This document shows positions 12,540 through 57,400 of a stretch of DNA of 64,000 nt, piece after piece. Numbering within the stretch: the stretch's first letter is position 1; each line of letters begins with the position of its first letter. The notes below the pieces were generated by a model. The model was not told the DNA's origin. It saw nothing but the letters and a program-made list of their open reading frames with translations, and did not search any database. This stretch comes from Tubulanus polymorphus (lineage: Eukaryota > Nemertea > Palaeonemertea > Tubulaniformes > Tubulanidae). The translations under genes were made by a program, and so were the position numbers. The stretch lies in contig NC_134025.1 of the NCBI RefSeq assembly GCF_964204645.1, forward strand, positions 31,526,001-31,590,000. Reading direction: 5' to 3'.

Positions 12540-13125
12540 CATCAACACATTTTGAAGGTCATCAGTGTTGTAACACACTGACAATTCTGTTTATTAGTCA
12601 CGTTTCTACATGACAGTTGAAGAAGGAAGGAGGAGACTCCTAAACTAAATATCACTCCAAAACAGAGTGTATTAATCAACATGGCACAGCAAGCAGCAGT
12701 ATTAAAGGAGGTCATCAGTGTTGTAACACACTGACAATTCAGTTTGTTTGTCACGGTTCTACATGACAGTTGAAGAAGGAAGGAGGAGACTCTTGAACTA
12801 AATATCACTCCAAAACAGAGTGTATTAATTAACAACCAGGAGCAAGCAGCAGTATTAAAGGAGGTCATCAGTGTTGTAACACACTGTCAATTCGGTTTGT
12901 TTGTCACGTTTCTACATGACAGTTGAAGCAGGAAGGAGGAGACTCCTGAACTAAATATCACCCCAAAACAGAGTGTATCAATTAACACCCAGCAACATGC
13001 AGCAGTATTAAAGGAGGTCATCAGTCTTGTAACACACTGACAATTCAGTTTGTTTGTCACGTTTCTACATGACAGTTCACAACCTTCAGGTGCAAGGAAC
13101 CAAAGTGAAGCTATCAAACAATAGC
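12540..13125. repeat. Satellite S1 block, 153-bp monomer, about 4 copies
   Basis: This is the first block of the 153-bp monomer (landmarks gtgttgtaacacactgac, ttctacatgacagttgaag, gcagcagtattaaagg). It ends in a junction segment (acaaccttcaggtgcaagg onward) that recurs at about 16130 and 16970. More diverged relatives (cacttacaattcag, ttcaagaggggaagg) precede it at 12290-12450. Confidence 0.9.
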
Positions 13126-14545
13126 ATCTTTGAGTATAACACTTTTAAAATCCGTAATGTGATAATAATTTGCTGATACAATATATACAGAGAACCAACA
13201 CCAGCATTATTTCAATGATTCAACCACCACAAAGCTATCGATGGATAGCTGTTTTGAATATTTATACATTTAAAACGTAAAGTCGCAATAAGGACGATCA
13301 GGAAACATGATCAATCCCAATTCACCATTACAATATATACAAAGTACCAACACCAGCGACATTTCAAAGATTCAACCACCACAAAGCTATCAATGGATAG
13401 CTGTTTTGAATATTTTTATATTTAAAACGTAAAGTCGCAATAAGGACGATCAGGAAACATGATCAATCCCATTTCACCATTACAATATATACAAAGTACC
13501 AACACCAGCGACATTTCAAAGATTCAACCACCACAAAGCTATCAATGGATAGCTGTTTTGAATATTTTTATATTTAAAACGTAAAGTCGCAATAAGGACG
13601 ATCAGGAAACATGATCAATCCCATTTCACCGACATATATTACAATATATACAAAGTACCAACACCAGCGACATTTCAATGATTCAACCACCACAAAGCTA
13701 TCGATGGATAGCTGTTTTAGATATTTATACATTTAAAACGTAAAGTCGCAATAAGGACGATCAGGAAACATAATCAATCCCATTTCACCATTACAATATA
13801 TACAAAGTACCAACACCAGCGACATTTCAATGATTCAACCACCACAAAGCTATCGATGGATAGCTGCTTTGAATATTTTTATATTTAAAACGTAAAGTCG
13901 CAATAAGGACGATCAGGAAACATGATCAATCCCAATTCACCAATATTACAATATATACAAAGAACCAACACCAGCGACATTTCGAAGATTCAACCACCAC
14001 AAAGCTATCGATGGATAGCTGTTTTAAATATTTATACATTTAAAACGTAAAGTCGCAATGAGGACGATCAGGAAACATGATCAATCCCAATGACCGACAT
14101 ATATTACAATATATACAAAGTACCAACATCAGCGACATTTCAATGATTCAACCACCACTAAGCTATCGATGGATAGCTGCTTTGAATATTTTTATATTTA
14201 AAACGTAAAGTCGCAATAAGGACGATCAGGAAACATGATCAATCCCAATGACCGACATATATTACAATATATACAAAGTACCAACATCAGCGACATTTCA
14301 ATGATTCAACCACCACTAAGCTATCGATGGATAGCCGTTTTGAATATTTATACATTTAAAACGTAAAGTTGTAATGAGGACGATCAGGAAACATGATCAA
14401 TCCCAATGACCGACATATATTACAATATATACAAAGTACCAACACCAGCGACATTTCAATGATTTAACCACCACAAAGCTATCGATGGATAGCTGTTTTA
14501 AATATTTATACAATTAAAACGTAAAGTCGTAATGAGGACGATCAG
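13126..14545. repeat. Satellite S2 block, about 160-bp monomer, 9 copies
   Basis: The landmark agctatcgatggatagct, a near-palindrome, recurs about every 155-160 bp, together with acaatatatacaaagtacc and aaaacgtaaagtcgcaat. Copies differ by point changes and a variable gaccgacatatatt insert. Further S2 copies lie at 16200-16830 (four) and 17050-17345 (two). Confidence 0.9.
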
Positions 14546-16130
14546 GAAGCAAAACTCGCCAAAACTCAATATCACCCCATAACAGAGTGTATTAATTAAC
14601 ACGCAGCAGCAAGCAGCAGTATTAAAGGAGGCCATCAGTGTTGTAACACACTGACAATTCAGTTTGTTTGTCACGTTTCTACATGACAGTTGAAGAAGGA
14701 AGGAGGAGACTCCTGCACTCAATATCACCCCAAAACAGAGTGTATTAATTAACACGCAGCAGCAAGCAGCAGTATTAAAGGAGGCCATCAGTGTTGTAAC
14801 ACACTGACAATTCAGTTTGTTTGTCACGTTTCTACATGACAGTTGAAGAAGGAAGGAGGAGACTCCTGCACTCAATATCACCCCAAAACAGAGTGTATTA
14901 ATTAACACGCAGCAGCAAGCAGCAGTATTAAAGGAGGCCATCAGTGTTGTAACACACTGACAATTCAGTTCGTTTGTCACGTTTCTACATGACAGTTGAA
15001 GAAGGAAGGAGGAGACTCCTGAACTCAATATCACCCCAAAACAGAGCCAGCAGCAAGCAGCAGTATTTAAGGAGAATGATTCTTGATGTTATAATGTTTA
15101 ATGTGATAATTTTTATTATAATAATGTTTAATGTAATAATTCAAGAAGTTCATGGAAGGTGGTAAGAATTAACACGCAGCAGCAAGCAGCAGTATTAAAG
15201 GAGGTCATCAGTGTTGTAACGCACTGACAATTCAGTTTGTTTGTCACGGTTCTACATGACTGTTGAAGAAGGAAGGAGGAGACTCCCGCACTCAATATCA
15301 CCCCAAAACAGAGCCAGCAGCAAGCAGCAGTATTAAAGGAGGTCATCAGTGTTGTAACGCACTGACAATTCAGTTTGTTTGTCACGTTTCTACATGACCG
15401 TTGAAGAAGGAAGGAGGAGACTCCTGCACTCAATATCACCCCAATACAGAGTGTATTAATTAACACCCAGCAGCAAGCAGCAGTATTAAAGGAGGCCATC
15501 AGTGATGTAACACACTGACAATTCAGTTTGTTTGTCACGTTTCTACATGACAGTTGAAGAAGGAAGGAGAAGACTCCTGAACTCAATATCACCCAAAAAC
15601 AGAGCCAGCAGCAAGCAGCAGTATTTAAGGAGAATGATTCTTGATGTTATAATGTTTAATGTGATAATTTTTATTATAATAATGTTTAATGTAATAATTC
15701 AAGAAGTTCATGGAAGGTGGTAAGAATTAACACGCAGCAGCAAGCAGCAGTATTAAAGGAGGTCATCAGTGTTGTAACGCACTGACAATTCAGTTTGTTT
15801 GTCACGGTTCTACATGACCGTTGAAGAAGGAAGGAGGAGACTCCCGCACTCAATATCACCCCAAAACAGAGTGTATCAATTAACACCCAGCAGCAAGCAG
15901 CAGTATTAAAGGAGGTCATCAGTCTTGTAACACACTGACAATTCAGTTTGTTAGTCACGTTTCTACATGACAGTTGAAGAAGGAAGGAGGAGACTCCTGC
16001 ACTCGATATCACCCCAAAACAGAGTGTATCAATTAACACCCAGCAGCAAGCAGCAGTATTAAAGGAGGTCATCAGTCTTGTAACACACTGACAATTCAGT
16101 TTGTTTGTCACGTTTCTACATGACAGTTCA
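14546..16130. repeat. Satellite S1 block with higher-order structure
   Basis: About ten S1 monomers of 153 bp (51 codons). Two monomers carry a nearly identical, roughly 100-bp AT-rich insert (about 15072-15170 and 15629-15725) in place of the usual gtgtattaatt segment, giving a 557-bp higher-order repeat. Minus-strand frames of 154-178 residues run through because 153 is divisible by 3. Confidence 0.9.
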
Positions 16131-17345
16131 CAACCTTCAGGCGCAAGGAACCAAAGTGAAGCTATCAAACAATAGCATCTTTGAGTATAACACTTTTAAA
16201 ATCCGTAATGTGATAATAATTTGCTGATACAATATATACAGAGAACCAACACCAGCATTATTTCAATGATTCAACCACCACAAAGCTATCGATGGATAGC
16301 TGTTTTGAATATTTATACATTTAAAACGTAAAGTCGCAATAAGGACGATCAGGAAACATGATCAATCCCAATTCACCATTACAATATATACAAAGTACCA
16401 ACACCAGCAACATTTCAAAGATTCAACCACCACAAAGCTATCGATGGATAGCTGTTTTGAATATTTTTATATTTAAAACGTAAAGTCGCAATAAGGACGA
16501 TCAGGAAACATGATCATTCCCAATTCACCGATATATATTACAATATATACAAAGAACCAACACCAACGACATTTCAAAGATTCAACCACCACAAAGCTAT
16601 CGATGGATAGCTGTTTTGAATATTTATACATTTAAAACGTAAAGTCGCAATAAGGACGATCAGGAAACATAATCAATCCCAATTCACCGACATATATTAC
16701 AATATATACAAAGTACCAACACCAGCGACATTTCAATGATTTAACCACCACTAAGCTATCGATGGATAGCTGTTTTGAATATTTATACAATTAAAACGTA
16801 AAGTCGTAATGAGGACGATGAGGAAGCAAAACTCGCCAAAACTCAATATCACTACAAAACAGAGTGTATTAATTAACACCCAGCAGCAAGCAGCAGTATT
16901 AAAGGAGGCCATCAGTGTTGTAACACACTGACAATTCAGTTTGTTTGTCACGTTTCTACATGACAGTTCACAACCTTCAGGTGCAAGGAACCAAAGTGAA
17001 GCTATCAAACAATAGCATCTTTGAGTATAACACTTTTAAAATCCGTAATGTGATAATAATTTGCAGATACAGTATATACAGAGAACCAACACCAGCATTA
17101 TTTCAATGATACAACCACCACAAAGCTATCGATGGATAGCTGTTTTGAATATTTATACATTCAAAACGTAAAGTCGCAATGAGGACTATCAGGAAACATA
17201 ATCAATCCCATTTCACCGACATATATTACTATATATACAAAGTACCAACACCAGCGACATTTCAATGATACAACCACCACAAAGCTATCGATGGATAGCT
17301 GTTTTGAATATTTATATATTTAAAACGTTAAGTCGCAATAAGGAC
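16131..17345. repeat. Mixed junction, S2 and single S1 satellite block
   Basis: Order: junction segment, four S2 copies, one S1 copy (about 16840-16965), junction segment again, then two S2 copies. The repeated junction-S2-S1 order shows that the composite unit duplicated as a whole. Confidence 0.85.
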
Positions 17346-19395
17346 GATCAGGAAGCAAAACTCGCCAAAACTCAATATCACCCCAATACAGAGTGTATCA
17401 ATTAACACCCAGCAGCAAGCAGCAGTATTAAAGGAGGCCATCAGTGTTGTAACACACTGACAATTCAGTTTGTTTGTCACTTTTCTACATGACAGTTGAA
17501 GAAAGAAGGAGGAGACTCCTGCACTCAATATCACTCCAAAACAGAGTGTATCAATTAACACCCAGCAGCAAGCAGCAGTGTTAAAGGAGGCCATCAGTGT
17601 TGTAACACACTGAAAATTCAGTTTGTTTGTCACGTTTCTACATGACAGTTGAAGAAGGAAGGAGGAGACTCCTGCACTCAATATCACCCCATAACAGAGT
17701 GTATTAATTAACACCCAGCAGCAAGCAGCAGTATTAAAGGGGGTCATCAGTGTTGTAACACACTGACAATTCTGTTTGTTTGTCACGTTTCTACACGACA
17801 GTTGAAGAAGGAAGGAGGAGACTCCTGAACTCAATATCACCCCAAAACAGAGTGTATCAATTAACACGCAGCAGCAAGCAGCAGTATTAAAGGAGGCCAT
17901 CAGTGTTGTAACACACTGACAATTCAGTTTGTTTGTCATGTTTCTACATGACAGTTGAAAAAAGAAGGAGGAGACTCCTGCACTCAATATCACTCCAAAA
18001 CAGAGTGTATTAATTAACACGCAGCAGCAAGCAGCAGTATTAAAGGAGGTCATCAGTCTTGTAACACACTGACAATTCAGTTTGTTTGTCACGTTTCTAC
18101 ATGACAGTTGAAGAAAGAAGGAGGAGACTCCTGCACTCAATATCACCCCAAAACAGAGCCAGCAGCAAGCAGCAGTATTTAAGGAGAATGATTCTTGATG
18201 TTATAATGTTTAATGTAATAATTTTTATTATAATAATGTTTAATGTAATAATTCAAGAAGTTCATGGAAGGTGGTAAGAATTAACACCCAGCAGCAAGCA
18301 GCAGTATTAAAGGAGGACATCAGTGTTGTAACGCACTGATAATTCAGTTCATTTGTTACGTTTCTACATGACAGTTGAAGAAGGAAGGAGGAGACTCCTG
18401 CACTCAATACCACCCCAAAACAGAGTGTATTAATTAACATGCAGCAGCAAGCAGCAGTATTAAAGGAGGTTATCAGTGTTGTAACACACTGACAATTCAG
18501 TTCATTTGTCACGTTTCTACATGACAGTTGAAGAAGGAAGGAGGAGACTCCTGAACTCAATACCACCCCAAAACAGAGTGTATTAATTAACATGCAGCAG
18601 CAAGCAGCAGTATTAAAGGAGGTCATCAGTGTTGTAACACACTGACAATTCAGTTCATTTGTCACGTTTCTACATGACAGTTGAAGAAGGAAGGAGGAGA
18701 CTCCTGAACTCAATACCACCCCAAAACAGAGTGTATTAATTAACACCCAGCAGCAAGCAGCAGTATTAAAGGAGGCCATCAGTGTTGTAACACACTGACA
18801 ATTTTGTTCGTTTGTCACGTTTCTACATGACAGTTGAAGAAGGAAGGAGGAGACTCCTGCACTCAATACCACCCCAAAACAGAGTGTATTAATTAACATG
18901 CAGCAGCAAGCAGCAGTATTAAAGGAGGTTATCAGTGTTGTAACACACTGACAATTCAGTTCATTTGTCACGTTTCTACATGACAGTTGAAGAAGGAAGG
19001 AGGAGACTCCTGCACTCAATACCACCCCAAAACAGAGTGTATTAATTAACATGCAGCAGCAAGCAGCAGTATTAAAGGAGGTCATCAGTGTTGTAACACA
19101 CTGACAATTCAGTTCATTTGTCACGTTTCTACATGACAGTTGAAGAAGGAAGGAGGAGACTCCTGAACTCAATATCACCCCAAAACAGAGTGTATTAATT
19201 AACACGCAGCAGCAAGCAGCAGTATTAATGGAGCCCATCAGTGTTGTAACACACTGACAATTCAGTTTGTTTTTCACGTTTCTACATGACAATTGAAGAA
19301 GGAAGGAGGAAACTCCTGAACTAAATAACACCCCATAACAGAGTGTATTAATTAACACCCAGCAGCAAGCAGCAGTATTAAAGGAGGTCATCAGT
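17346..19395. repeat. Satellite S1 block, about 13 copies
   Basis: This is the longest S1 run, with a third copy of the AT-rich insert at about 18186-18282. On the minus strand it gives frames of 272 and 383 residues made of a 51-residue unit (core NCQCVTTLM, FNTAACC, LLQLSCR). The changes between copies alter amino acids freely (W/C/M, K/E, A/T), there is no start or splice context, and the other strand is also partly open, so I do not call it coding. Confidence 0.9.
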
Positions 19396-20505
19396 GATTT
19401 TTAGCAGTAACTGACCAACAGTGTTTTGTAACACTTAACTTTCATCGCCACCAATTGATTTAGCAGTAATTGATCCACTTTCACTTCACTTTTATCATAG
19501 TTTGTAATTCGCTGCATTCAATGAGCAATTTCAATTTTTTTTCTATTGAGGAAACCACAGCAAAAAACTAAATGTATACAAACAATGAGTGTCTTATTTA
19601 ATTGTTGATGAGAGAGGAGAGAGAGGAGGCATGTACACCTAACACAACGTTTAAAACTCAATATCACAACCAAAACAGAGTTGAATGATAGCAAGCATCA
19701 GCAACATCAAGTTTTCAAATAAGGAAGTAATCAGTATTGTAAGTCACATCTATTTGACAATTCAAGAAGGCAAGGGAAGGAGAAGAGACTCCAAAACTCA
19801 ATATCACCCCTAGAACAGAGTGGAATGAGCAACATGCAGTAGCAAACAACAGTATTTGCCGTAGTAGCAAACAACAGTATTTGCCGTTTTTAAAGGAGAA
19901 GAAAGGAGTATCTTCTGTATTTGATACTCGTTTGATGTCATAGCAAGGCCATTACCGGGAGTTATAGAGAACAAAAGGAGAAGCCATGCAACCAGAAGAT
20001 TTTAATTGTCTATGATTTTGATATTGTATATAAAAATGGCACGATATATCACCTCGTAGCAGAGGAAGGAGGTAGAACAACCGCAAGATCAGTACATCTA
20101 TCAATGTTTCATTACATGTATCATTGTTTCAAGACACCAACTTTCAGTGTTTTGTAAGACTTAACTTTCATTACCACCAATTGATTTAGCAGTAATTCAT
20201 CCACAGTGTTTTGAAACTCGTAACCTTCAGATTTGTGTCTTACTTATTTCGTGATGAGAGAGGAGAGAGAGGAGTCTTGTAGGAAATGTAGCCATACACC
20301 TATCAAAGCTTTTTTACAAATGCAAATCAGTTTGTTCGAGACTATGGACGTTTGTTGCTGGAGGAGACAAACTGTATTCCAAATTGAAACCCTTTTAGTT
20401 TTTAGCTTTTTCTCAGAGAGATCGAACCCACACGACGTCTGGCAAAGGCTTCAAACATTTTGATAACTGTTCGCGTAGAGCCAATGATAAAACCAGCATT
20501 TATCA
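19396..20505. other. Degenerate satellite edge
   Basis: Diverged pieces of S1 continue (aacaacagtatttgccg twice, ctcaatatcac, gagagaggagagagagga twice, ccaattgatttagcagtaat twice) and then fade. A 76-codon plus frame at 20233-20463 has no support. Confidence 0.5.
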
Positions 20506-28375: not shown

Positions 28376-28534
28376 AAAAATCCACCTTTTTCAAACTCCA
28401 TAGGAGTTATTGTAGGAATTGATTCCCTGAATATCCCAAAAGAGATTTACAACGGCCGACCATAGCATTAGAATAGATGTCTCCTAAGAAGGCTACTGCC
28501 ACAATCAGGTGGTATGGATGGTTATTGCTGCAAA

Positions 28535-28975
28535 GTAGTGGCAAGGATGGTAAATGCTTCAGCATCGTGAGAAGCAAAATGAACCTTAATGATTAAGGTA
28601 TTGTAATGGAAGTAGTAGCAAGGATGGTAAATGCTTCAGCATCGTGAGAAGCAAAATCAACCTTAATGATTAAGGTATTGTAATGGAAGTAGTAGCAAGG
28701 ATGGTAACTGCTTCAGCATCGTGAGAAGCAAAATCAACCTTAATGATTAAGGTATTGTAATGGAAGTAGTAGCAAGGATGGTAACTGCTTCAGCATCGTG
28801 AGAAGCAAAATCAACCTTAATGATTAAGGTATTGTAATGGAAGTAGTAGCAAGGATGGTAACTGCTTCAGCATCGTGAGAAGCAAAATCAACCTTAATGA
28901 TTAAGGTATTGTAATGGAAGTAGTAGCAAGGATGGTAACTGCTTCAGCATCGTGAGAAGCAAAATGAATCTTAAT
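28535..28975. repeat. 77-bp minisatellite, about 6 copies
   Basis: The core gcaaggatggtaactgcttc recurs at 28541, 28618, 28695, 28772 and onwards, with a perfect period of 77 bp. Each unit contains the self-complementary ccttaatgattaagg. Confidence 0.95.
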
Positions 28976-29210
28976 GAATATGGGGTGGAACAAAAATGGT
29001 GTGGAACACAGTGGGATGTACAGTCAAAAAAAAGAAATAAATAAATGATATAAAATGTATATGAATGAGATGATGGATAAAAATTCCTTTCATCCAAAAA
29101 ATAAATAAATTGATGAAATGATAATGAATTTTTTTTTAATTTTTATCTTTTTGAATTTTTTTGGAGATAAACCGTAAAACTCCATAAAATCCATATTTAC
29201 AAGGCTGGTT

Positions 29211-32400: not shown

Positions 32401-35400
32401 TGTACATTACCATTGTGTCCCCGGCAAGACACTTATCCTCATTTCCTCTCTCCACCCAGAAGTAAATTGGTACCTGGCCCGATAGAGGACCCCTGAGCGC
32501 CTAGCGGCTGCTCGGATGTTACTTCACCCCGGAGACTATTAAATGGCTGCGGCAATAAAACCGAAAATGTAAAGCGCTCTGAGCAGCATCTGGATTTAGG
32601 GCTTTATTAGACACATAATATTATTATTTTTATTATCATCGAACAGAGCAATACCATAAAAGGCAAAACATAAAAACAACATTTCATCTTTATTTCATCG
32701 AATTGAACAGATTATACCAGATATAGACCATCTACCAGTTTAAGCGAAGTCTACAGTATCATTAAGGGCAAAAAATCCAATAAAATGCGATACATTTGAA
32801 AATATGTTTTTGTAAAATGAATTTTAACCGAATTTTAGTTCGAAAAATTGTGATATTTCCTTCGAGTACTGTACATTTCCCTATATGGTTTTTGCTAAGT
32901 AAGTCTAATTCATTTTCATTTCATCACAAACAGAAAATGGACACGAAAAATTTCATTCAAATTTCTTCTGTATTTTCTGTATTTTCATCATCAATCAAAA
33001 AAACTTAAACTTTTACTTTCAGAAACAACCGCCAGGGGTAAGATCCATTTCACTCGACACTACCCGCACCTGTACCTTCAGAAACAACCGCCAGGGGTAA
33101 GATCCATTTCACTCGACACTACCCGCACCTGTACCTTCAGAAACAACCGCCGGGGTAAGATCCATTTCACTCGACACTACCCGCACCTGTACCTTCAGAA
33201 ACAACCGCCAGGGGTAAGATCCATTTCACTCGACACTACCCGCACCTGTACCTTCAGAAACAACCACCAGGGGTAAAAACCATTTCACGTGACACTGTCC
33301 ACTACTGTACCTTCAGAAACAACCATCAGGGGTAAAAACCATTTCAGACGACACTGTTCACTACTGTACCTTCAGAAACAACCATCAGGGGTAAAAACCA
33401 TTTCAGACGACACTGTTCACTACTGCAACTTCATACAATCAAATCCATTCACTACAAATTACAGTAAGATTTCTATCTATAAAAATCAAACATCATTAAA
33501 CAGCGAACAATAAACGATATTTAGAATTAGGCCTATTTCACATGAATTCATTAAGTATTTCAAATAAGTCACTACTTACCCTTCAAGTATAGAATTATTC
33601 AGTGGAATAATTCACTATAAATACAGCTGCAGCCGTTTACAGAAAAAACAATATGAAATGTTGCCGTCGAACTTGTAAGGTGTAAAACAGGATAGACCTA
33701 GATAAATGTCAGGCCTGGATAACGGTAGAGGAAATACTTTTTACTTTAAGAAAATAAAAGAATTCTGAAAAATAAAACATTAAGTCAAAGGGTAGGCCTA
33801 TCTGAAGACATCCTCGCTTGCCAGGGGTCCGGTATCACTCCCGAACTCGCTTCCACCAGCGCTCCCTGGCCTCACGACGCGTGATTTCATTACTGGCGCC
33901 GTTGCGCATGACGTCATATATCGATTTGCAAAATACTTCCTTGTTCGGAAAAACGTTCGCTGATTGGTCCATTTAAATGGAAAACCAACAGAAGTCTACT
34001 GTCGTTTGTTACAAGCGCTGTGATTGGTACGACCGGATTCTGGTCGGCTAGTAACGACTCCAACGACTCGTGAGGTCAAGGGGTTCGGGGAACAGCTTTA
34101 GCTTAGTAGGTTCGAATCCCTTGACGGGTGAAGATGATCTGAAGAAAAGCTAGGAAATTTAATAAAATCTGGTCTCAGAACAAAATGAATCACACAGTTC
34201 CGTTACTGAGTAAACTGTCATCCGGATACTGAGTAAACTGTGGTCCGGATGCTGAGTAAACTGTCATCCGGATACTGAGTAAACTGTGGTCCGGATGCTG
34301 AGTAAACTGTGGTCCGGATACTGAGTAAACTGTGGTCCGGATGCTGAGTACACTGTGGTCCGGATACTGAGTAAACTGTGGTCCGGATGCTGAGTAAACT
34401 GTGGTCCGGATACTGAGTAAACTGTGGTCGGGATGCTGAGTAAACTGTGGTCCGGATACTGAGTAAACTGTGGTCCGGATGCTGAGTAAACTGTGGTCCG
34501 GATACTGAGTAAACTGTGGTCCCGACACTGAGTAAACTGTGGTCCGGATGCTGAGTAAACTGTGGTCCGGATACTGAGTAAACTGTGGTCCCGGCACTGA
34601 GTAAACTGTGGTCCCGACACTGAGTAAACTGTAGTCCGGATGCTGAGTAAACTGTGGTCCGGATACTGAGTTAACTGTGGTCCGGATACTGAGTAAACTG
34701 TGGTCGGGATACTGAGTAAACTGTGGTCCGGATACTGAGTAAACTCACTGTATAAGACTCAGTACCTAACGAGGCACCAACCATTGACCGTAATAATGAA
34801 TCCGTTAGAAATAAATCGTGTGTAAACTGTATTTGCCGCACGGCCGCAATATCTAGGATTCGCCAACAATTAGACGATGAAGATTCGGACTATGAGCCGA
34901 GCTAGTGTATGACATTCGTATCAAACATCATATCCTTAGTTTAGATCTAGTATAAACATTGAGTGGGTGTGGCTTTAGAATAGTTAGCTGAATGATAGCA
35001 GTTGCGAGGTATACCTCCTTCCTGCCATAATCTCCGGATCTCAAACTGTTTTGAGCAACTACCTTGAGATACGAGGAACAAAGTTTAACCAATAAATCAA
35101 AAATAGTGATCCTGAATTTCCTGACGATTGATGAACGATTAATAAAAAAAGAAAATCACATGTTTTCGGATCCTGGAGTCGCAGAGAAAAACAAAAGTAA
35201 CGTAAATACTAGTTCTACTTTTCAGCGGTATCTAAAATGTTGGTCCCATAATGTGACGGGTATCTGGGACTTAACAGCTATCCGGTTCCTGTCTAAACTA
35301 TCAACTAAACCCGGTCCAGTTATTGACTAAAATATGGACTAAACCGTAGTCCACTAAAATATGGACTACACCGCAGTCCAGTTAGTGACTAAAATATGGA

Positions 35401-40697: not shown

Positions 40698-43600
40698 CTG
40701 AAAATTAACATTAATCCGTTTAATATTAGTTAATTAATTGGTTAATTAGAGAAATACAGTCAAACTTGTGAAGTAAAGTCGTTATCTGATAAGTCCTTCA
40801 TAAAACTGAATCATCTCTATTTTTTAGTCCAATTTGTATTTCTAATTCAATTTACTTATCGTAAGTCATCAACTGTAAAGAGTTCAGCAGTAAGGCTGTA
40901 CAGCTCGGTTGTGCAGTGAGTTTAGGTAACTTACTTTCAGAGCTAAACAGCTGTGGTTAATAGTTCTACCGAATCGTTTATCACCGGTATGCTGTTCTAA
41001 ATCAGAGATCCAATCATCTATTTGATGAATTATCTCGTGTCGTTTTAACCAGAAATGTTTATGAATCACCTACAGAAACAAGATACAACAATTCATTTAA
41101 ATCATGAATTCATTAAGAATGATCTGGAATACAGATTAAGAGACGAGAGGGAGAGAGAGGGAGAGAGGAGAGGGAGAGAGAGGGAGAGAGGAGAGGGAGA
41201 GAGAGAGGGAGAGAGGAGAGGGAGAGAGGAGAGGGAGAGGGAGAGAGAGAGGAGAGGGAGAGAGAGGGAGAGAGAGGGAGAGAGGAGAGGGAGAGAGAGG
41301 GAGAGAGGAGAGGGAGAGAGAGAGGAGAGGGAGAGAAGTGGGGAGAGGAGAGAGTGGAGAGAGAGGGGAGCAGAGAGCAGAGAGTATAGGAGAGAGGGAG
41401 AGAAATGGAGGAGGAGAGGAGAGAAATGGGGGGAGATGGAGAAGAGAGGGGGAGAGATGGAGAAGAGAGGGGGAGAGATGGAGAAGAGAGGGGCAGAGAG
41501 GGAGGAGAGAGTGTAGAGAGGGAGAGGGGAGAGATGGAGAAGAGAGGGGGAGAGATGGAGAAGAGAGGGGCAGAGAGGGAGGAGAGAGTGTAGAGAGGGA
41601 GAGGGGAGAGATGGAGGAGAGGAGAGAGGAAGGGGAGAGGAGAGAGAGTGGAGAGTACAGGAGAGAGAGAGAGGGGGAGAGATAGATGCAAATACAAACC
41701 TGTTTAAAACATGGATCTGGATTTCTCAACATTTCTAACATTGCCCATTTCACAGTTGCTTGTTTAATATTAGCGTCGTATTCTCGTGAACTCGCCGTGC
41801 CAGATAACGTACCTCTAGAACGCTCATAACCGGGTTCATTAAAATACGGTTCAGAAACTAAAATCAGTGACTGAACAGATACTAACACCTACAAAATAAT
41901 AACAATACTGAGTATGAATTTGTAAAATACAGTAGACTCTGTCTCTTACTGCGGTAAAGTTGAAACCGGTAAAATTCTACCCCGAGTTGGTGTCAAATAC
42001 TGAGTAAGAGTTTGTGAAATACAGTAGACTCTGTCTCTTACTGGAGTAAAGTTGAGACCGGTAAAATTCTACCCAGAGTCGGTGTCAAATACTGAGAGTT
42101 TGTGAAATACAGAAGACTCTGTCTCTTACTGCGGTAAAGTCGAAACCGGTAAAATTCTACCCCGAGTTGGTGTCAAATACTGAGTAAGAGTTTGTGAAAT
42201 ACTGTAGACTCTTGTCTCTTACTGCGGTAAAGTTGAGACCGGTAAAATTCTACCCCGAGTTGGTGTCAAATACTGAGTAAGAGTTTGTGAAATACAGTAG
42301 ACTCTGTCTCTTACTGCGGTAAAGTTGAGACCGGTAAAATTCTACCCCGAGTTGGTGTCAAATACTGAGTAAGAGTTTGTGAAATACAGTAGACTCTGTC
42401 TCTTACTGCGGTAAAGTTGAGACCGGTAAAATTCTACCCCGAGTTGGTATCAAATACTGAGTAAGAGTTTGTGAAATACAGTAGTCTCTGTCATGTCTCT
42501 TACTGCGGTTAAGTTGAGACCGGTAAAATTCTACCCGGAGTTGGTGTCAAATACTGAGTAAGAGTTTGTGAAATACAGTAGACTCTGTCTCTTACTGCGG
42601 TAAAATTGAGACCGGTAAAATTCTACCCCGAGTTGGTGTCAAATACTGAGTAAGAGTTTGTGAAATACAGTAGACTCTGTCTCTTACTGCGGTAAAGTTG
42701 AGACCGGTAAAATTCTACCCCGAGTTGGTGTCAAATACTGAGTAAGAGTTTGTGAAATACAGTAGACTCTGTCTCTTACTGCGGTAAAGTTGAGACCGGT
42801 AAAATTCTACCCCGAGTTGGTGTCAAATACTGAGTAAGAGTTTGTGAAATACAGTAGACTCTGTCTCTTACTGCGGTAAAGTTGAGACCGGTAAAATTCT
42901 ACCCCGAGTTGGTGTCAAATACTGAGTAAGAGTTTGTGAAATACAGTAGACTCTGTCTCTTACTGCGGTAAAGTTGAGACTGGTAAAATTCTACCCAGAG
43001 TTGGTGTCAACTACTGAGTAAGAGTTTGTGAAATAAGTAGACTCTGTCTCTTACTGGAGCAAATTTGAGACCGGTAAAATTCTACCCCGGGTTTGTGTCA
43101 AATACTGAGAGTTTGTGAAATACAGTAGACTCAAATACCAAGTCTATTTGAGAATTCAGCTCAGAATATTGAGATGTGTTTTAAATACCTGAAGGAAGCT
43201 TGATGTTTGTGAATTCCATTTCTCTTCCGGACGGCCGTGCCATGTGTTCAGTATACTCAAACAAACCTACAACAATAATTCATACCCGTATAAAACATTT
43301 CTCAGAACGAACTATAAGAAAACAATGTCTGAATAGAAACCGGTCTCTCTTACCTTGCCATCATTGTATAAATTAGGATTGAATCTAACTGTATGATTAC
43401 CGGTAGTTTCTAGATTCACAAGTGGTGGAGAATTTGGGTAATCATGAGGAAAATAGACGTCTAATATAAAACATCCGTTAGCGTACGGTGTATCAGACGG
43501 TCCCGTTATCAATACCTAGAAATATGAAATATAAAACATCCGTTAGCGTATGGTGTATCAGACGGTCCCGTTATCAATACCTGGAAATATGAAATATAAA

Positions 43601-46600
43601 ACATCCGTTAGCGTACGGTGTATCAGACGGTCCCGTTATCAATACCTAGAAATATGAAATATAAAACATCCGTTAGCGTACGGTGTATCAGACGGTCCCG
43701 TTATCAATACCCGGAAATATGAAATATAAAACATCCGTTAGCGTACGGTGTATCAGACGGTCCCGTTATCAATACCTGGAAATATGAAATATAAAACATC
43801 CGTTAGCGTATGGTGTATCAGACGGTCCCGTTATCAATACCTAGAAATATGAAATACAAAACATCCGTTAGCGTATGGTGTATCAGACGGTCCCGTTATC
43901 AATACCTAGAAATATGAAATACAAAACATCCGTTAGCGTATGGTGTATCAGACGGTCCCGTTATCAATACCTAGAAATATGAAATATAAAACATCCGTTA
44001 GCGTACGGTGTATCAGACGGTCCCGTTATCAATACCTAGAAATATGAAATATAAAATATCCGTTAGCGTACGGTGTATCAGACGGTCCCGTTATCAATAC
44101 CTGGAAATATGAAATACAAAACATAACCCTTCAAACACAATCAATAATAAATGTTTTGTAATTAAATTGACTTCGACATTGTTTGTCAATACAAATGAAG
44201 TCATAAAGACAAAATGAATAACTATCTGGCAGGAGTCGCTTCTTTCAGTTTAATCAGTGCAGTTTACAATATGGCTAGTATTGTCTAGTAGAGATTTGAA
44301 TAGAGCATTTGATTAACAATCACCTCACAGCTGACTGGTCACCATACCTGAATAGTAACCACCACACTGACCAGACAAACATACAAACCATATAAATCAG
44401 TTGAGCTCAATGGTCTAGTGGTTAGGACTGAGGGCTGGCAAATGAGAGACCCAGGTTCAAATCCCACTGGGGGCTAGGGTTAGGGTTAGGAGCTAGGGTT
44501 AGGGTTATAACCGGACGAGCTAGGGTTAGGGTTTGGTAGGAGCTAGAGTTGGGGTTAGGACCGATTTTGGAAGGAAGGGCAGTGATCATATGATATTACA
44601 ACGCCCATGAAAACCTCTTTTTCATACATCTTTAGATTTTAAGCTTGAATAATGATAGATTTGTATTTTACCTTCATTACGTCGAGTCTCTCCTCATCAC
44701 ATCTGACAAACACACTACTGCTAGCCGATAGAGGTAGTGATGTAGATAGAGTGACCGCTTCCTGCGCCAGACGCCTCGCTCTAGGTGCATTATTCACCTC
44801 TCCGGCCGCTATTATATTAGACTCATAATGATGTGGACATTTAAATCTAAACAAACTGTCTTCTTCTTCAATCATCTCAAACGTATCTACAAAATATACC
44901 CAGAAATATTACACATTTTTACAGGTTCTAAAAATGTTAAATACCACAAGAATCAGTTATCAATAATGTTCGAATTTACAATTTTAAATTGTTAAAGAGG
45001 TAAAAGAAAGAATCCTATGAAATGTTACAATACAGTTTCATTAGGAAAATCAGGATTAATTTGAATATATATCAAGTCATTGAAACTGAGTCAGTACTTA
45101 GCTTAGTAAATAACTCAGTACTTAGCTCAGTATTTAACTCAGTAATTAGTTCAGTATTTAACTCAGTAATTAGTTCAGTATTTAACTCAGTAATTAGTTC
45201 ACTATTAAGTTCAGTATTTAGCTGAAGAGGCGGAGAGGAAACACTGACCGAACTGTAATTCTTTCATAGTCGACATGTAGAGATCATCGAGAGATTTATC
45301 TGCGTGTGAAGCTGTGGATTTGTGTGAGTGAGGTTTACTATCAACATTTGAATCTACAAAACAAAATACATTTCATAGAAACATGACAATACACATTCAG
45401 GGGAGTAGGGAGTTTAAGGGAGGGGAGTACAGAGTTCAGGGGAGGGGGGTGTTATAGACATACTGAGTGAATCCTGACGTAGTTTAAGCGTTGCTGTTTC
45501 TACTAAACTCGCTGATTTCTGTATCATACTGAGAGGGGGAGTAGGGAGTTTAGGGGAGGGGGAGAAGGGAGTTTAAGGGAGGGGGTGTTATACATACTAA
45601 GTGAATCCTGACGTAGTTTAAGCGTTGCTGTTTCTACTAAACTCGCTGATTTCTGTATGTCCGGTATCAATAAAGCTAATCCTTCACATTCATCATCTTC
45701 CTCTTTTGTTTGAGGTGTTTTACTGCTTTTACTGTTCGTCCTAAAAATACATTTCAAACTCACATTCAATAAATACCCCACCTATAGTTTATCAGCGGTA
45801 TTAACCACCCAGACCCAGGCCTGCCAACTTCTGAAAAGTGCTATCAGTAACAAGTTGTGGGAAAATTTCATTGAAATTAATCAGTAATCAATGGTTTAGA
45901 CACTCAGTAAGATCTTCCACATTTCTGTACACATCAAACAGATGATAATCAGGAACAGTTGTGTTTGTTTGATTCTTGAACTCACTTCAATCTACTGGCG
46001 TATGTATCGACACATGATTTCATCTTGGATAATAATGAACTGAGACAAGCAGATTCTACAGTTCCATCCTCTTTATCAATCGGCATCAATAATGGAACTA
46101 GTACTGGACAGATAGCGATTCCTCGTAGCAGTTCTAACAGTGCTTTATACAGCGGTACATGACGAGCCATATCTAATACTACAATATAGAAAATACACTT
46201 AGTCAATCAGTTTAACAGTGGATCCAGTTACATAGTTGTGTGAGTTCATCCAGATTCGCTACAGGATGAAATCGAATTATTTGATTTGCGATGAAACGAA
46301 CCTGAATCATTTCTGAGATAAGATGAAATTGCTGGAACTAAACACGATTGACAGAGTAACTCGGGTAGGATTAACGGTAAACAATGTTTCTCCGTGTGAC
46401 CGTCACAAGCGCTTGTTTCGGTTTCAAATAATTCTGGTACATTTCCACCAGGGTTTATGTAACTAGCTAAAACCTACAGTTCAATAGAAAATAAAACAGT
46501 CAATCAGTATTGAAATACCGTAGAGGGGGAGGGGGAGGGAGGAGAGGAGAGAGGGGAGGTAGGCGTAAGAGGGGAGGGAGGGGAGAGGGGAGGAGATGGG

Positions 46601-47901
46601 AGGGAGGAGAGGGAGTGGGAGAGGGGAAGGGTGTGGGAGAGGGAAAGGGTGTGGGAGAGGGGAGGGGAGCAGGAGAGGGAGCGGGAGGAGGGGGAAGGGG
46701 AGAGGGAGTGGGAGAGGGGAAGGGTGTGGGAGAGGGAAAGGGTGTGGGAGAGGGGAGGGGAGCAGGAGAGGGAGCGGGAGGAGGGGGAAGGGGAGAGGGA
46801 GTGGGAGAGAGGGATTTGATGGGTTGACTCTAACCTGCAGTTCAATAGAAAATAAAACAGTTAATCAGTATTGAAATACCGTAGAGGGGAGGGAGAGGGA
46901 GAGAGGGGAGGGAGGGGAGAGGGAGGGAGGAGATGAGGGGGAAGGAGAGGGAGGGGAGAGGGAGCAGTAGGGGAAGGGGAGAGAGGGGAGGGAGAGGGGA
47001 AGGCGAGGGAGAGGTTAAGGGAGAGGGAGGGGAAGGGGAGAGGGAGGGGAAGGGGAGAGAGGGAGGAGGAGAGGGGAGGGATTTGATGGGTTGACTCTAA
47101 CCTGCAGTAAACACGTCACATGTTCCTCTTCACTTTTTTGTCTAAGTAAAGCCTGTTCCGCGTCCCAACTAGAAGTGAACGACCCAGTCCCGAATCCTGT
47201 TCCTTTCGCCCAGTAATGTTGTGATTTATCGTTTGTTGGTTTCTCCGTGGTAACGGTAGGTGTTTGCGACACCTGCATCGCGGCCATTATTATCTACAAA
47301 CAATATAAACAACATTCAGTATTGATTTAGAAACGTATATTTTCACTTCCAGTTTTGCGGAGGAGATAAATCTAACCTCGTGATGGAATCCAGGTATAGA
47401 TACTCTCGGAGCGTGATGACTCAGTACCGATAAACACGCTAATATCAGCTGAATAGCTCCGATATCTAACATCATTCTACGCAACAATACACCATCATCG
47501 GTCGTCAACGGCGACTGATCGAATAAACTCTTTAATACAGAGAACGGTAACGTGGGTAGCGAGCTAGCGACCGGTGACGTTAGGATATGACCTATAAATA
47601 TATATCATATATCAGTTATCATCTGGTTTAATTCGATATATCAATATCATAAAATGGAACGGAGTATAATAAAGATGAATACCTCCGTCTCCGTCGTCTG
47701 TCACACCGAGAACTAATCGTAACAAACACTGAGCTTTCTTACGTTCCGTCAACAATACCTCGGCGTATCCCGGCAACCGTAGGAATAAACCGAACGCGAC
47801 CAGTGAATGCGGAGGAATGCTGGGTAATGTGGTGTTTGATTGACGGTTAGAAGGTTGAGTTGAAGTCCCAGCAGTCGTCGACTCTATATCCTAGAAAATC
47901 A

Positions 47902-48419: not shown

Positions 48420-51400
48420 ATGATGAAGCTCCATTACTAGATGATGTTTTAGGTGTTGGTTTGATAACAAACTCAATGGATGATTGACCTTGAGGTAAAC
48501 CACGTTCATGTAATAAAACTAACACTTGAGTTAATGTCATATCAGTCGGTAGAGCTTGACCTGGAAATAATGAAAATCATACAGTGAACTATTGATAGGT
48601 CGGATTGAACTATAGGGATAAAAGTATCGATAGGTACCTGGTATCAACGCATGATATATCGATAATGAAGTATTATTGGTCGAGAATAGATCATCTCTAG
48701 TAGCAGGGCGCCCTCTACGTGTCGGAGGTCTCTGCATTGTAGGCATGCTACCTCCGTGTTTATACAGATCACGTTTCTCTTTGGCAGACATTCCACTAGA
48801 CTGTATTATACCTGTTAAACATCAAACACACATATATCACTGAGACTGAGTCATTGACTATCACTGAGACTCTGTCAGTATCTAATAACACAGATGTGAA
48901 ATCTCATTGACAACTGACAGATTTAACTACCAGTCTCACTACAGATTAACTCTTACTGACACAACAGTGGAACTGTGGATCCTGTGGAATCTCTCCTCCC
49001 CCTCAGTGGAACTATGGATCCTGTGGTATCTCCACCCTCTCCCCTCCCCTTGGATCCTGTGGTATCTCCACCCACTTCCCTCCCGCTCAGTGGAACTGTT
49101 TATCCTGTGGTATCTCCCCTCCCCCTCAGTGGAACTGTTTATCCTGTGGTATCTCCCCTCCCCCTCAGTGGAACTGTTTATCCTGTGGTATCTCCCCTCC
49201 CCCTCAGTGGAACTGTTTATCCTGTGGTATCTCCCCTCCCGCTCAGTGGAACTGTTTATCCTGTGGTATCTCCCCTCCCCCTCAGTGGAACTGTTTATCC
49301 TGTGGTATCTCCCTCTCCCCTCCCCCTCAGTGAAACTGTTTATCCTGTGGTATCTCCCCTCCCCCTCAGTGGAACTGTTTATCCTGTGGTATCTCCCCTC
49401 CCCCTCAGTGGAACTGTTTATCCTGTGGTATCTCCCCTCCCCCTCAGTGGAACTGTTTATCCTGTGGTATCTCCCCTCCCCCTCAGTGGAACTGTTTATC
49501 CTGTGGTATCTCCCCTCCCCCTCAGTGGAACTGTTTATCCTGTGGTATCTCCCCTCCCCCTCAGTGGAACTGTTTATCCTGTGGTATCTCTCCTCCCCCT
49601 CAGTGGAACTGTTGATCCCATGTTCCCCCCTCAGTGGAACTGTCACTTACCGGAAGCGCTAGATATCTGATCTACGACTTCTATTCCTAGTTCACTCGCA
49701 TCCTTCTTTTCATCTTTATCATCATCGTTATTATCGGATAATCTCGTAGAGTTAATGGATGCCGATGTATCAGCGATCATCTGAATAATATCAGCACATG
49801 TTGTCTGTAAACCGACTGTTATCACTTGATGTTTGTGGCCGGCTCCGAATTTCGGGTGATGAATTTGACTGATTCCGGACGGCCCTTTATGAAGCGGGAC
49901 GCTCGATTTGAAAGCTAATTGTATTTTTTCATCTTCGAGAAGAACTTGTAGGAAAAGACGTCTGGTGAATCCTGATAACGGCAGACTATTGAATACTATC
50001 GCTGAACCTGTCAAATATATAAAACATCTCAATTATTCATACAGTTACAACTGTGAATTAGAAACAGACTCAAGGGTCAAGTCTCAATCGACTACTGTAG
50101 ACTCAACCTGCTCGAGGCAGCTAGTTAATTCCCGGGCAGTTTGATGGCTGTTATCACAAGAAGGCAACTATCTCCACGGCAAACACAGTATTTAAACTCT
50201 ATTAACTATAATCTAACTCAAAACTGTAGAAATCCCTGTTTAACAAAAATATGATTTATAATTCTGAGTAATATGTAATAGTAGCACCAGGGGGCGTTAT
50301 ACGTACCAGGTTGGGTTATACCCTGTTCTTTAACGACATTACACAGCACCTGCGCGAACAGATGCTGAGCTATTGAATGTCCGGCGGTAACGTTAGTGAA
50401 GAACGCGACCGTAGCCGTCTCTACCGCTGCCCTCTGTTGGCCGCTGAGTAGTTTATGAGAGTGGAATATAGGTGGCGTACATGTAGTAGATTGTAGAGGA
50501 TTCGTACACAACATCGTCATCAAAACCGGCCAGAAAATATTAGCGTAATCGCTGACTAACCAATCCTTCATCACCGGTTCACGGGAAACATCAGATAGGA
50601 AATTCAATATGGCCGCTACTAAATCTACCGTTATACTAACTCCTTTATCTATAGAGAATTAAAGAATCAATTAATTCATTTCATTCGAAATAACATCGAA
50701 ATACTAACTCCTTTATCTATAGAGAATTAAAGAATTAATTAATTCATTTCATACAAAATAACATTGAAATATAGATGTTCAGATGTATTTTTACCTGATG
50801 AAACTGAAGTGACTGAAACCGATCTTGTTTTACGTTTTAACGATTCAGTTTTTGCTGAATCAGTTTCAGCGATTGATTCGCTCATATAACCGAGCTGTCG
50901 CGTACAGAACTCCAGTAAACTCTGACACAATATCTCCGGGAATCCCGAATCTAATAACTGATGAATGGCGGCCTCTGATTGACACGCTACGGCTAACGTC
51001 ATCAAATGACAGTCGTTCAGGACGATATTCCCGATATCGAACATCTCAGAGTTTGACGATGAATTTTGACAAGCTTCTTTAGAATCGTCGGTCATTGATT
51101 GTAGTTGGGCGTTGATGTCGTTAGATAACGGTGCTGGACCGTGTGTTAGACTGATTCCCATCCATTCCATCAGTAATGATAGATAGTAAGGTTGTATGTG
51201 ACACATCGATGATATAACGCTGTCTACCGCTTGTTTTAATGTAGCGTTTTGTAAAACTGTCGACCATTCGTACATTGAACTGTAAATAATCATGTACAAT
51301 AAATATCACCAGGGTTCGGTTTCATGTAGCTTAAATCAGTTAAGTTTGAATTGTTGTCCTCATTGAAAACATGAAGTAACCAATGGTGATTACACAAAAA

Positions 51401-54400: not shown

Positions 54401-57400
54401 AGCCGCGAGTTTTGACTCGTGAAATAATCGAATATTGAACGAATGATTAATTTTAAATCAGTCGATTTACGATTTAAAGTGCTCAATATTTGAAATATAC
54501 AATCACCGACGGAGATAGGATCTAATTCTGAGCACGCCTGTTGAGCGTTACACCCTAGCGACCCGGTTCCCATTAGTAACGCTATCGTGTTACTGTTACA
54601 TCTGTTTAACGAATGAATTAAATCATTCATAATTTGACCGTGAGTCAGAATTATATCGGAGATCGTCGGTTCTTTTGTTTCCGTCTCCGGGCGATCGATA
54701 TCGCTATAATGTGAACACGATCGTCGTGACGATATCTCGCATTTTTGTTCGTCCGTTTCCGCCGGTCCGAGCTGTGATTGGTTGATTTTACTCGAGTCGG
54801 TCATCGCCGATAACTCGACGCCGTTAGCTCCGCCCCCAGCCGTAGCCGCGGATACTAATGAAGCGATCGCATTGGCTCGACTGCTGCGATGCGGTAACGC
54901 GACTTGGATCAGAGAATTGACGAGTTTCAGTAAATTACAGACGAGAACATCTCGCGTGGCTTCACCCTGCATCACTCGAGCATCTCCTGGACATAACATC
55001 GACGCAAATAATCTACGAATGTAACAAATAATACACAGTGAAAATATACTGAAATTATTGAAATGAAGCGGAAATTATTGAAATTATCTATAATTATTGA
55101 TTTGCTTATTTTAGAAATAAACAGTGATCACTTTAAAGAAATGAAGATATTGAAATAAATAAGATATACTGACCCTCCGAAGCATGATTTCGGGTTGACA
55201 CTGTTCTCTAATGAACTATTACAGGTCACTCTCTCCTGACTCAGAATGTGCTGTTTAGTTAACGTACAGATTGAAGTGATCACACTAATAGCATTATTGA
55301 TGTCGACTCCTTCAAAATCCTGTTCTAAAATGTGTTCTAGCAGTCGATACTGGGCGTCTAATGGACCCAAACCACATTGAAACGGTCCTCTGAAATCAAT
55401 CAGTAAATCTCAGGGTTAAATTTGAGTTCATAGAAACTGATATCATGAATTAAACTCTATGACTTTTGAGTCCTTGTTTGACTCTATAGAAAGAACTGGT
55501 TAATTTCAAATCTCAACTGATATTATCCCTTACCTTTCAGCAGTCAATGTATAAACAAGTCTGAGTAAAAGTTCCCTGAGATGAGTTTCATTCTCTGTGG
55601 AACATCGTGCGTTTAATCTTAACAGGAAACTCTGGAACACTTGAGTCGTAGTCGGTCCAACCTTTAATACATTATCAATATTACAGTCACTCCCGATGAC
55701 TCTAGAGTCAATAAACTACTAATTACTCAATAATCGAGAATGTAGATATTTTATACATTACCTGTGAAGTTTGATTTGTAGGAGTTGATCCCGATAAGAA
55801 TTTAATGAGTACCGGAACCAGATAACTGTCGGCCATGATAACAGACGCCATAGGTCTATCAGACGGGTCCTGACACCTGGTGTTCGTTAACCATGTCAGA
55901 GCCTGAAACGCTAGAGTCCACGTTCTTACCGAGATATTCGGGACGATCGTCAGCGTGTGAAATAATGAATTAACGGCGACTGGAGTTAAAGGAATTAACG
56001 GAATTCGACTTGAATCGAACGTTATTTCCTCACAGTTACTGTCATCATTCATAGTTAACCACAGCGAGAGGAGAGTATCTAAATCTACTCTATACGTCGG
56101 TAACTGTAGAACCAAGTGATTAAAACAAGTACTTAACATTTCATACGACGATATCTGACTCTGAAATTAAATAAACACAATACATTATACTTAATACTGT
56201 ACATAGAAATATACATTTTTCATGTGTCCTCAATAATTGAAGGGGACATAATCGGCATATTCCTTAACCCGGTTTCATAGACTCAAAGTAACCACTAGTG
56301 GTCTCAGGATTCCTCAGTGGTCTCAGGATTCCTGAGGGTCTCTTTGATTCTAATACGAACCTCATGAGTTGCATTGAACAATCCAGCATCATTTATCTGT
56401 TCATCATCTGTAACTGTTGACGACTGATAATACATCGATTCTACCGCACTCGGTAACCCAGGTAACGGAGACAATAACGCATTGTTGAATATTTCGACCT
56501 CCATCGATATCATCATTTTCAGCCGGAGTTCGGTGGTTAATTCAATACCGAACTCCAACCTTGAATCCATAGCGATAGAAGTACCTGAACTGTTCGCTCC
56601 AGAAATACGGTTTATCAGTAAATGATCGGCGATACTTTTCTTCAGTCGATTTAAACGATCGATTTTAGTTTGTTGCGTCTCACATTTTTCAGCTCTGAAA
56701 ATAGAATTGAAATTATAACTGGTAAGCCGATATTTCAAGCAGAGACGCAGGGTCATAGATAGTGGAACTGGGATCTCGTGGATTGTGGAACCGAAGTCTC
56801 CTGGATTGTGGAAGTGGAATTATTTTTACTCACTGTATATTAAGTGCGTTCTCGTTGATGATTTTAGAGACGCCCGACGTTGATTGAACGACGTTCATTA
56901 TTGGGTAGTTGTTATTGACGACAGACGCTGCTGTATTTTCATCCGTTAACAGTATATCCATTAACTGATAACCGGAGGAAGCAGATGGCTCCTCCGACAC
57001 CGGAGTCACCCCAGTCATCTGCTCCAACACCGGAGCAACCCCAGTCATCTCCTCCAACACCGGAGCCACCCCTGCCATCTCCTCCAACTGCGAGTTGTCT
57101 CCGGAGTGATTATTTTCCGCTGAACTATTCTCCTCGCTGTTGTTACCTTGACCTCCTCCGATACTGTCGTCTGTCTCCGATAGCGACGCCGTGATATCAT
57201 CGTCTGTTATCACGTCACTAACGGTTACCATCGGATACAGACGCTCACCTACAATCAATCGTTAATCATTAATTCATATAGTTGATTTTAATCGTGGATT
57301 AGAATTAAACCGGCGTCAATAAATAAACTTACTCTCTAGTATATCTAGTAGTAGACAGGTAACTGAGTGTACGGCCCACGGTCCGCCCCAAGCGTTACCA

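Follow-up and report, generated by a model that had tools for sequence, protein, structure and literature searches.

The window studied here, 64,000 nucleotides of contig C1 (C1:31526001-31590000), carries BIRC6 on its minus strand, and one intron of this gene contains nine extra tandem copies, each of 65 bp, of the boundary between that intron and the exon that follows it. We consider it likely, at a probability of about two in three, that this array is a minisatellite of the kind termed "mirage" in amphioxus, which arose from a single BIRC6 exon boundary and lies passively in its intron at an array-rich contig end. All BIRC6 features described below are on the minus strand.

BIRC6 and the Array-Bearing Intron

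Four parts of the translated open reading frames (ORFs) of the window matched human BIRC6 in phmmer searches, with E values of 4e-269, 5e-75, 1e-199 and 9e-187. Because this homology was collinear, extended over approximately residues 1556-4755 of the solved human chains (with gaps) and included the UBC domain, we accept both the gene and the domain that had been named in a preliminary description of this DNA. A purpose-written spliced alignment, which modelled 33 introns, agreed that the repeated sequence is an exon edge. The genuine exon (43354..43515, 162 nt, phase 0) lies in the UBC domain and ends in ...NDGK; in the exon after it there is an 11-residue stretch that we take to include the catalytic cysteine. 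Upstream of the genuine exon is the array-bearing intron (43516..44671, 1156 nt, phase 0), of which the nine extra units account for 585 nt. In the spliced alignment this intron extends from the donor ATGAAG|GTAAAATAC at 44671, at the end of the exon 44672..44886, to the genuine acceptor TTTCTAG|GTATTG at 43516.

Structure and Variation of the 65-bp Array

The array (43463..44124) consists of the genuine exon edge, nine extra units and a distal partial unit. Tandem Repeats Finder (TRF) gave it a period of 65, 10.2 copies, 97% matches and a score of 1233, and a direct read of the sequence agreed with TRF on the nine extra copies that had been reported previously. These units span 43516-44100, with their exon-side ends at 43580, 43645 and so on up to 44100, the genuine edge being at 43515. 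In each unit 53 bases are identical to the start of the exon and 12 bases belong to the intron side, and the unit therefore spans the intron-exon boundary. When the 65 bases of the genuine edge were compared with the 267.8-Mb assembly (77 contigs), in a search that skips very common words, ten matches were obtained and all were inside the array.

The copies were said to be alike in keeping both an AG acceptor and 16 codons, and this was largely but not wholly correct. YAG|GTATTG was present at nine of the ten boundaries and the AG was retained at eight of the nine extra ones, the exception being TTCCGG|GTATTG, in which positions 43711..43713 read CGG. The 16-residue peptide of the exon start was likewise exact in eight of the nine extra copies, the most distal copy having Y in place of C (...YANGYF). 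Across the nine extra units only five of the 65 columns were variable, all by transitions; the most distal unit had a private change at column 44, and the inner units had shared variants in mixed order. Two of the five variable columns fell within the three-base YAG, and one of these changes abolished the AG, compared with an expectation of 0.23 (p ~0.02 if columns are evenly hit). The extra acceptors thus showed no sign of constraint, which argues against selection retaining them, although the count is very small.

Strength of the Repeated Splice Sites

Splice sites were scored with weight matrices built from 28 of the 33 modelled introns, five doubtful joins being omitted, and these matrices are small and rough. 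The nine intact acceptors scored 8.5-9.1 bits and the CGG boundary 3.6 bits, against a leave-one-out median of 7.9 bits for real acceptors (28 sites). Among 604 other intronic AGs, a background that contains the array's own boundaries, the 99th percentile was 9.1 bits. These values bear out the proposal that near-identical acceptors compete in this intron, as nine of the ten lie above the median of the real sites.

It had also been suggested that the junctions might act as donors, giving rise to 65-nt microexons. As donors, the boundaries scored 3.3 bits (TAG|GTATTG), 5.3 bits (CAG|GTATTG) and 2.8 bits (CGG|GTATTG). Scores of 3.3 or 5.3 bits exceed those of most intronic GTs (524 sites, array included; median 0.3, 90th percentile 3.8, 95th percentile 5.3). 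They are nevertheless weak by comparison with the real donors, whose median was 7.9 and lower quartile 5.1 bits, and a score of 3.3 surpassed just five of the 28 real sites. Each extra unit closes with the next AG|GTATTG (in one case GG|GTATTG), a similarly weak donor. We regard these donors as weak though not absurd, and the microexon suggestion, too, as weak.

Predicted Products of Distal Acceptor Use

The exon ending at 44672 was joined in silico to each of the nine distal boundaries, and every time the 24th codon was a stop, which left 236-756 nt to the last modelled junction downstream. All nine choices gave an identical 23-residue reading or a one-residue variant of it. As 65 equals 2 modulo 3, the addition of three units (195 nt) restores the frame in length, yet two in-frame stops come with each unit added, and an included 65-nt microexon leads to the same stop-bearing text; protein was obtained only with zero added units. 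These results ruled out frame-preserving use of three units, which had been proposed as the way in which the frame would be saved. They also leave no room for an altered catalytic domain, the other consequence foreseen for distal acceptor use, as only truncated messages could follow. Messages with early stops are removed by nonsense-mediated decay (NMD), and those from distal acceptors would presumably be among its targets. Since any message that retained a copy would meet a stop codon, the BIRC6 protein itself is probably left unchanged by the array.

A Branch-Site-Like Motif within Duplicated Codons

The nearest extra unit has a branch-site-like motif, CTAAC, at 43542..43546, within the duplicated codons GCT AAC (Ala-Asn). 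At boundaries 0-8, that is, all but the most distal, CTAAC places its branch A 27 nt upstream, CTGAT stands at 42 nt, and no other AG occurs for at least 63 nt. The pyrimidine tract of these boundaries includes TGTTTTATATT, derived from Cys-Phe-Ile codons, such that motif and tract are both made largely of duplicated codons. Upstream of the most distal boundary lies the presumed original intron end; the AG-free stretch there is just 26 nt and no CTRAY motif was found within 70 nt.

The first suitable AG beyond the branch site is usually the one chosen. Eight intact AGs and a CGG intervene between the genuine acceptor and an old branch site beyond the array, which would hardly be usable, and CTAAC at 43546-43542 is therefore the most likely candidate; judging from the sequence, the genuine acceptor probably uses this branch site made of copied exon. 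The motif is suggestive and would be helpful to such use, rather than required for it. Among the 27 other introns scored, CTRAY occurred 15-45 nt upstream of the acceptor in seven, and the looser YTNAY in 21.

Tandem Repeats at the Contig End

The window lies ~0.47 Mb from the end of C1. In the window as a whole, 30% of the sequence was taken up by tandem repeats with a period of at least 10, and in its BIRC6 part 24%. The corresponding share was 3.3% for 62 gene loci, with overlaps left unmerged, and 2.3% for ten 4-kb pieces from contig interiors at hand-chosen positions; a piece from C10 reached 21% and the other nine had 0-1.2%. For nine 3-kb pieces located 0.47 Mb inside contig ends, values were 6.7-52% (mean 19%; Mann-Whitney p = 0.002). 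On C1 itself, the share was 1.8% at 0.76 Mb, 0% at 1.06 Mb and 15.5% at 1.56 Mb from the end concerned; closer to that end, pieces at 31.7 Mb and 31.9 Mb reached 33% and 100%. Based on these densities at contig ends and in the interior, we place the window in an array-rich but patchy end belt.

Exon edges were nonetheless spared from repetition: duplicated 24-mers covered two of 56 exon edges, against 139 of 440 intronic and three of 220 exonic points. The Fisher value of 1e-6 for this sparing is indicative only, owing to clustering among the intronic points. The 24-mer test was also strict, and it missed the duplicated donor at 45597, which has an indel between its copies.

Several other repeats were noted in the course of this survey. 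The next BIRC6 intron contains a 92-bp array (41904-43132) whose family is dispersed: there were at least 215 matches, with scoring of 40 out of 313 candidates, and the matches listed were on C1, C3, C6, C8, C9, C10, C11 and C12, most of them within ~2 Mb of a contig end. An 87-bp array at a myosin locus on C9 (L011, 535-1268) resembled this family by eye. The 4-kb piece at C1:31900001-31904000 (L074) consisted entirely of a 102-bp satellite in 39 copies. In the window, blocks of ~153-bp and 152-159-bp units alternated over 7 kb (12556-19396), a higher-order tandem structure with long minus-strand ORFs, and a 30-bp tandem repeat was found inside an ORF of the BIRC6 region (56989-57088), where it is perhaps a coding repeat.

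Origin of the Array and Alternative Explanations

The sequence at the distal flank (44101..44130), the intron's presumed original 3' end (TTATGTTTTGTATTTCATATTTCCAG), suggests how the array could have been born. Its ATGTTTTGTATT resembles the exon's ATGTTTTATATT at 11 of 12 positions, such that ATGTTTTRTATT is common to the distal flank ...TTATGTTTTGTATTTCATATTTCCAG| and, one unit away, to the exon ...GGATGTTTTATATTAGACG. We propose that slipped replication or unequal exchange at the boundary of this one BIRC6 exon created the array, the first duplication occurring between these near-identical 12-mers, in the pyrimidine tract and in the exon, and that unequal exchange would have been responsible for later growth and homogenisation. 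The resulting array would be passive within the intron. Of the ten acceptors, the one at 43516|43515 is the nearest and alone gives protein; it would be preferred since, paired with the donor GTAAGAGAG at 43353, it defines the shortest exon.

There are several points that weigh against this explanation. Nine near-equal acceptors are odd for a conserved gene to tolerate, and the upstream ones are transcribed first. The other boundary duplications that we found, described below, have about two copies, far below this array. The end belt is patchy, given an interior C10 piece with 21% and the low values (1.8 and 0%) of C1 at 0.76 and 1.06 Mb. As CTRAY was seen in just seven of the 27 other scored introns, the form of the old branch site could also have been different.

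One alternative is that the array is a set of poison acceptors, where regulated use of distal acceptors leads to early stops and BIRC6 output is tuned by unproductive splicing. The stop at the 24th codon after all nine distal boundaries, well before the last modelled junction, would speak for such a mechanism, as would the eight of nine extra boundaries that keep an AG and score 8.5-9.1 bits. However, the extra AGs carry no sign of constraint, one having been lost and the YAG having received two of the five variable columns, and the region is crowded with other arrays; we therefore think this explanation unlikely. Less probable again is that the array has become a hijacked 3' splice site, in which duplicated codons supply the functional branch point and a large part of the pyrimidine tract, the row of AG|GT junctions buffers mis-splices to any distal acceptor by re-splicing them to the genuine edge, and a copy number free to vary among individuals sets the productive output of BIRC6. 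A recursive-splicing ladder, with splicing to a distal acceptor followed by stepwise re-splicing through GTATTG to the genuine edge, would account for YAG|GTATTG at nine of ten boundaries spaced by 65 nt. It would find some support in CAG|GTATTG, whose 5.3 bits are close to the lower quartile of real donors, and in the comparable real donor CTTCAG|GTATTTAAA at 43188. Nevertheless, the weaker form TAG|GTATTG (3.3 bits) is found at six of the nine YAG boundaries, among them the genuine edge, and Drosophila ratchet points are mostly in long introns and tend towards strong regenerated donors (PMC8605326), whereas the intron here has 1156 nt. We consider such a ladder distinctly improbable.

It is very doubtful that the array is an artefact of an assembler that inflated or collapsed the copy number. 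The nine units differ at five columns and their order is mixed rather than simply periodic, and 662 bp is short relative to long reads. The fact that twelve contigs make up 261.7 of the 267.8 Mb (97.7%) suggests that long-read data were used. The idea of a mobile repeat imported from elsewhere draws on the dispersed 92-bp array of the next intron, with its matches on several contigs. For the 65-bp unit we regard this origin as effectively ruled out, since the unit is mostly the codons of this exon and its matches in the assembly, in a search that skips very common words, were confined to the array.

Other Duplications of Exon Boundaries

Three further boundary duplications were identified in BIRC6. 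At the exon that ends at 45598, the donor edge was present in 1.9 copies of 134 bp (45400..45658), by TRF and the spliced alignment, with an extra donor CACTCA|GTATGT at 45463. In the spliced alignment, one intron (46474..47101) had both ends doubled, giving an inner fusion AACTGCAG|GTTAGAGTC at 46835|46834 in which an acceptor and a donor stand back to back. This AG|GT fusion resembles a zero-length exon and is a cleaner candidate for recursive splicing than the 65-bp array. TRF and the spliced alignment also showed, for the exon that starts at 50648, an acceptor edge in two 68-bp copies (50633..50771), with an extra acceptor at 50717. The BIRC6-part arrays at 56297, 53643, 48965, 59162 and 41904 were judged to be without an exon edge. 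Elsewhere in the window, the arrays at 28533-28977 (77 bp, 5.8 copies) and 33014-33414 (59 bp, 6.8 copies) had AG|GT-like junctions and may be boundary arrays of an unmodelled gene.

Outside BIRC6, four of 142 exon matches to myosin, HECT and kinesin in the 62 loci were near a repeat, and one proved genuine by inspection. This was a kinesin gene on contig C3 (L053), where the exon end SKLTRLLQ| is duplicated at its donor edge (78 bp, two copies). The comparison covered the matches within the 62 loci (38 of 91 for myosin, 104 of 223 for HECT and kinesin) and relied on the edges of family-model matches, with a margin of 15 bases, in place of gene models, so that cases will be missed. Two of the 38 myosin matches and two of the 104 HECT and kinesin matches were near a repeat. 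One myosin match was dropped as its partner copy was just 73% alike (L001 and L018 being the same place), the myosin match at L007 as it was outside the visible exon, and the match at L043 in the HECT and kinesin set as a distant 78% match. A separate myosin locus (C4:4125126-4126944, G000) had four tandem matches ~555-590 bases apart, to myosin-head positions 119-152, 121-152 and 112-152, which perhaps represent mutually exclusive muscle-myosin exons. Taken with the repeat content of the window, the boundary arrays of BIRC6 look like an effect of the end belt on a resident gene.

Comparison with Known Systems

The amphioxus mirage minisatellites are tandem repeats of an intron-exon boundary and are described for Adh3, the globins BflGb6 and BflGb9, and TnC, with similar but less perfect duplications in PGBD5 (PMC3087553, PMC3902484). 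Many, though not all, of their copies retain AG/GT signals, and they are reported to be unstable in length and to leave regular splicing undisturbed (PMC3087553, PMC3902484). The reported unit lengths are 10-160 bp, and mirages have been put forward as an origin of new introns (PMC3087553). The BIRC6 array has the structural features of this group, namely a boundary-spanning unit, a length of 65 bp and an AG at eight of nine extra boundaries. As in BflGb6, the repeated sequence is the 3' end of the intron and the 5' part of the exon, and BIRC6 has nine extra units compared with six and three in the two BflGb6 haplotypes. The array is unlike the amphioxus mirages in that it is probably from another phylum, lies at an array-rich contig end and has a branch-site-like motif in duplicated codons. 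A muscle myosin from C4 had its best matches in chains 1dfk, 1dfl and 1b7t (514 bits) and 3i5f (509 bits), those of scallop and squid, ahead of Myosin-7 (497 bits), a lead towards a lophotrochozoan as the likely source of this DNA. Searches with COX1 and with the arthropod cuticle family gave no match, the latter together with its control. In our partial search of the literature, "mirage" was met as a boundary repeat for amphioxus only, and elsewhere in unrelated reference titles. The preliminary description, which placed the array correctly but read slightly too much into it, had connected it neither with mirages nor with the array-rich contig end.

Related events have been described in other systems. 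A report on a potato RdRp gene describes an intron gained by tandem duplication of the 3' intron end and the exon start, the duplicate having a putative branch site, a pyrimidine tract and a 3' splice site (PMC4974935). The BIRC6 unit likewise joins the 3' side of an intron to the 5' side of an exon. However, a single duplication sufficed for a new intron in potato, whereas the BIRC6 copies stay within one modelled intron and we infer no new one. Ratchet points of recursive splicing have juxtaposed AG|GT and, after a short stretch, another donor (PMC8605326), a configuration that recalls the nine of ten AG|GT boundaries here. The array departs from them in its weak regenerated donor (2.8-5.3 bits against a real median of 7.9), its 1156-nt intron and its tandem origin. 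Variable internal tandem repeats in human segmental-duplication genes are also boundary repeats able to change gene structure, and modify or create exons and introns in paralogs (PMC2812944); BIRC6, by contrast, is one conserved gene whose array is intronic in our model.

The BIRC6 array is thus most likely a many-copy case of a known kind, the mirage, in what is probably a new lineage, and passive in its intron. The array carries a warning for gene annotation, as methods based on protein similarity would see ten starts for one exon. It also provides a natural ladder of ten near-identical boundaries within a single intron, from which splice-site choice and the use of coding-derived branch points would be readable from RNA. 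If our interpretation is confirmed, the mirage phenomenon would reach another animal group and would be tied to array-rich chromosome ends.

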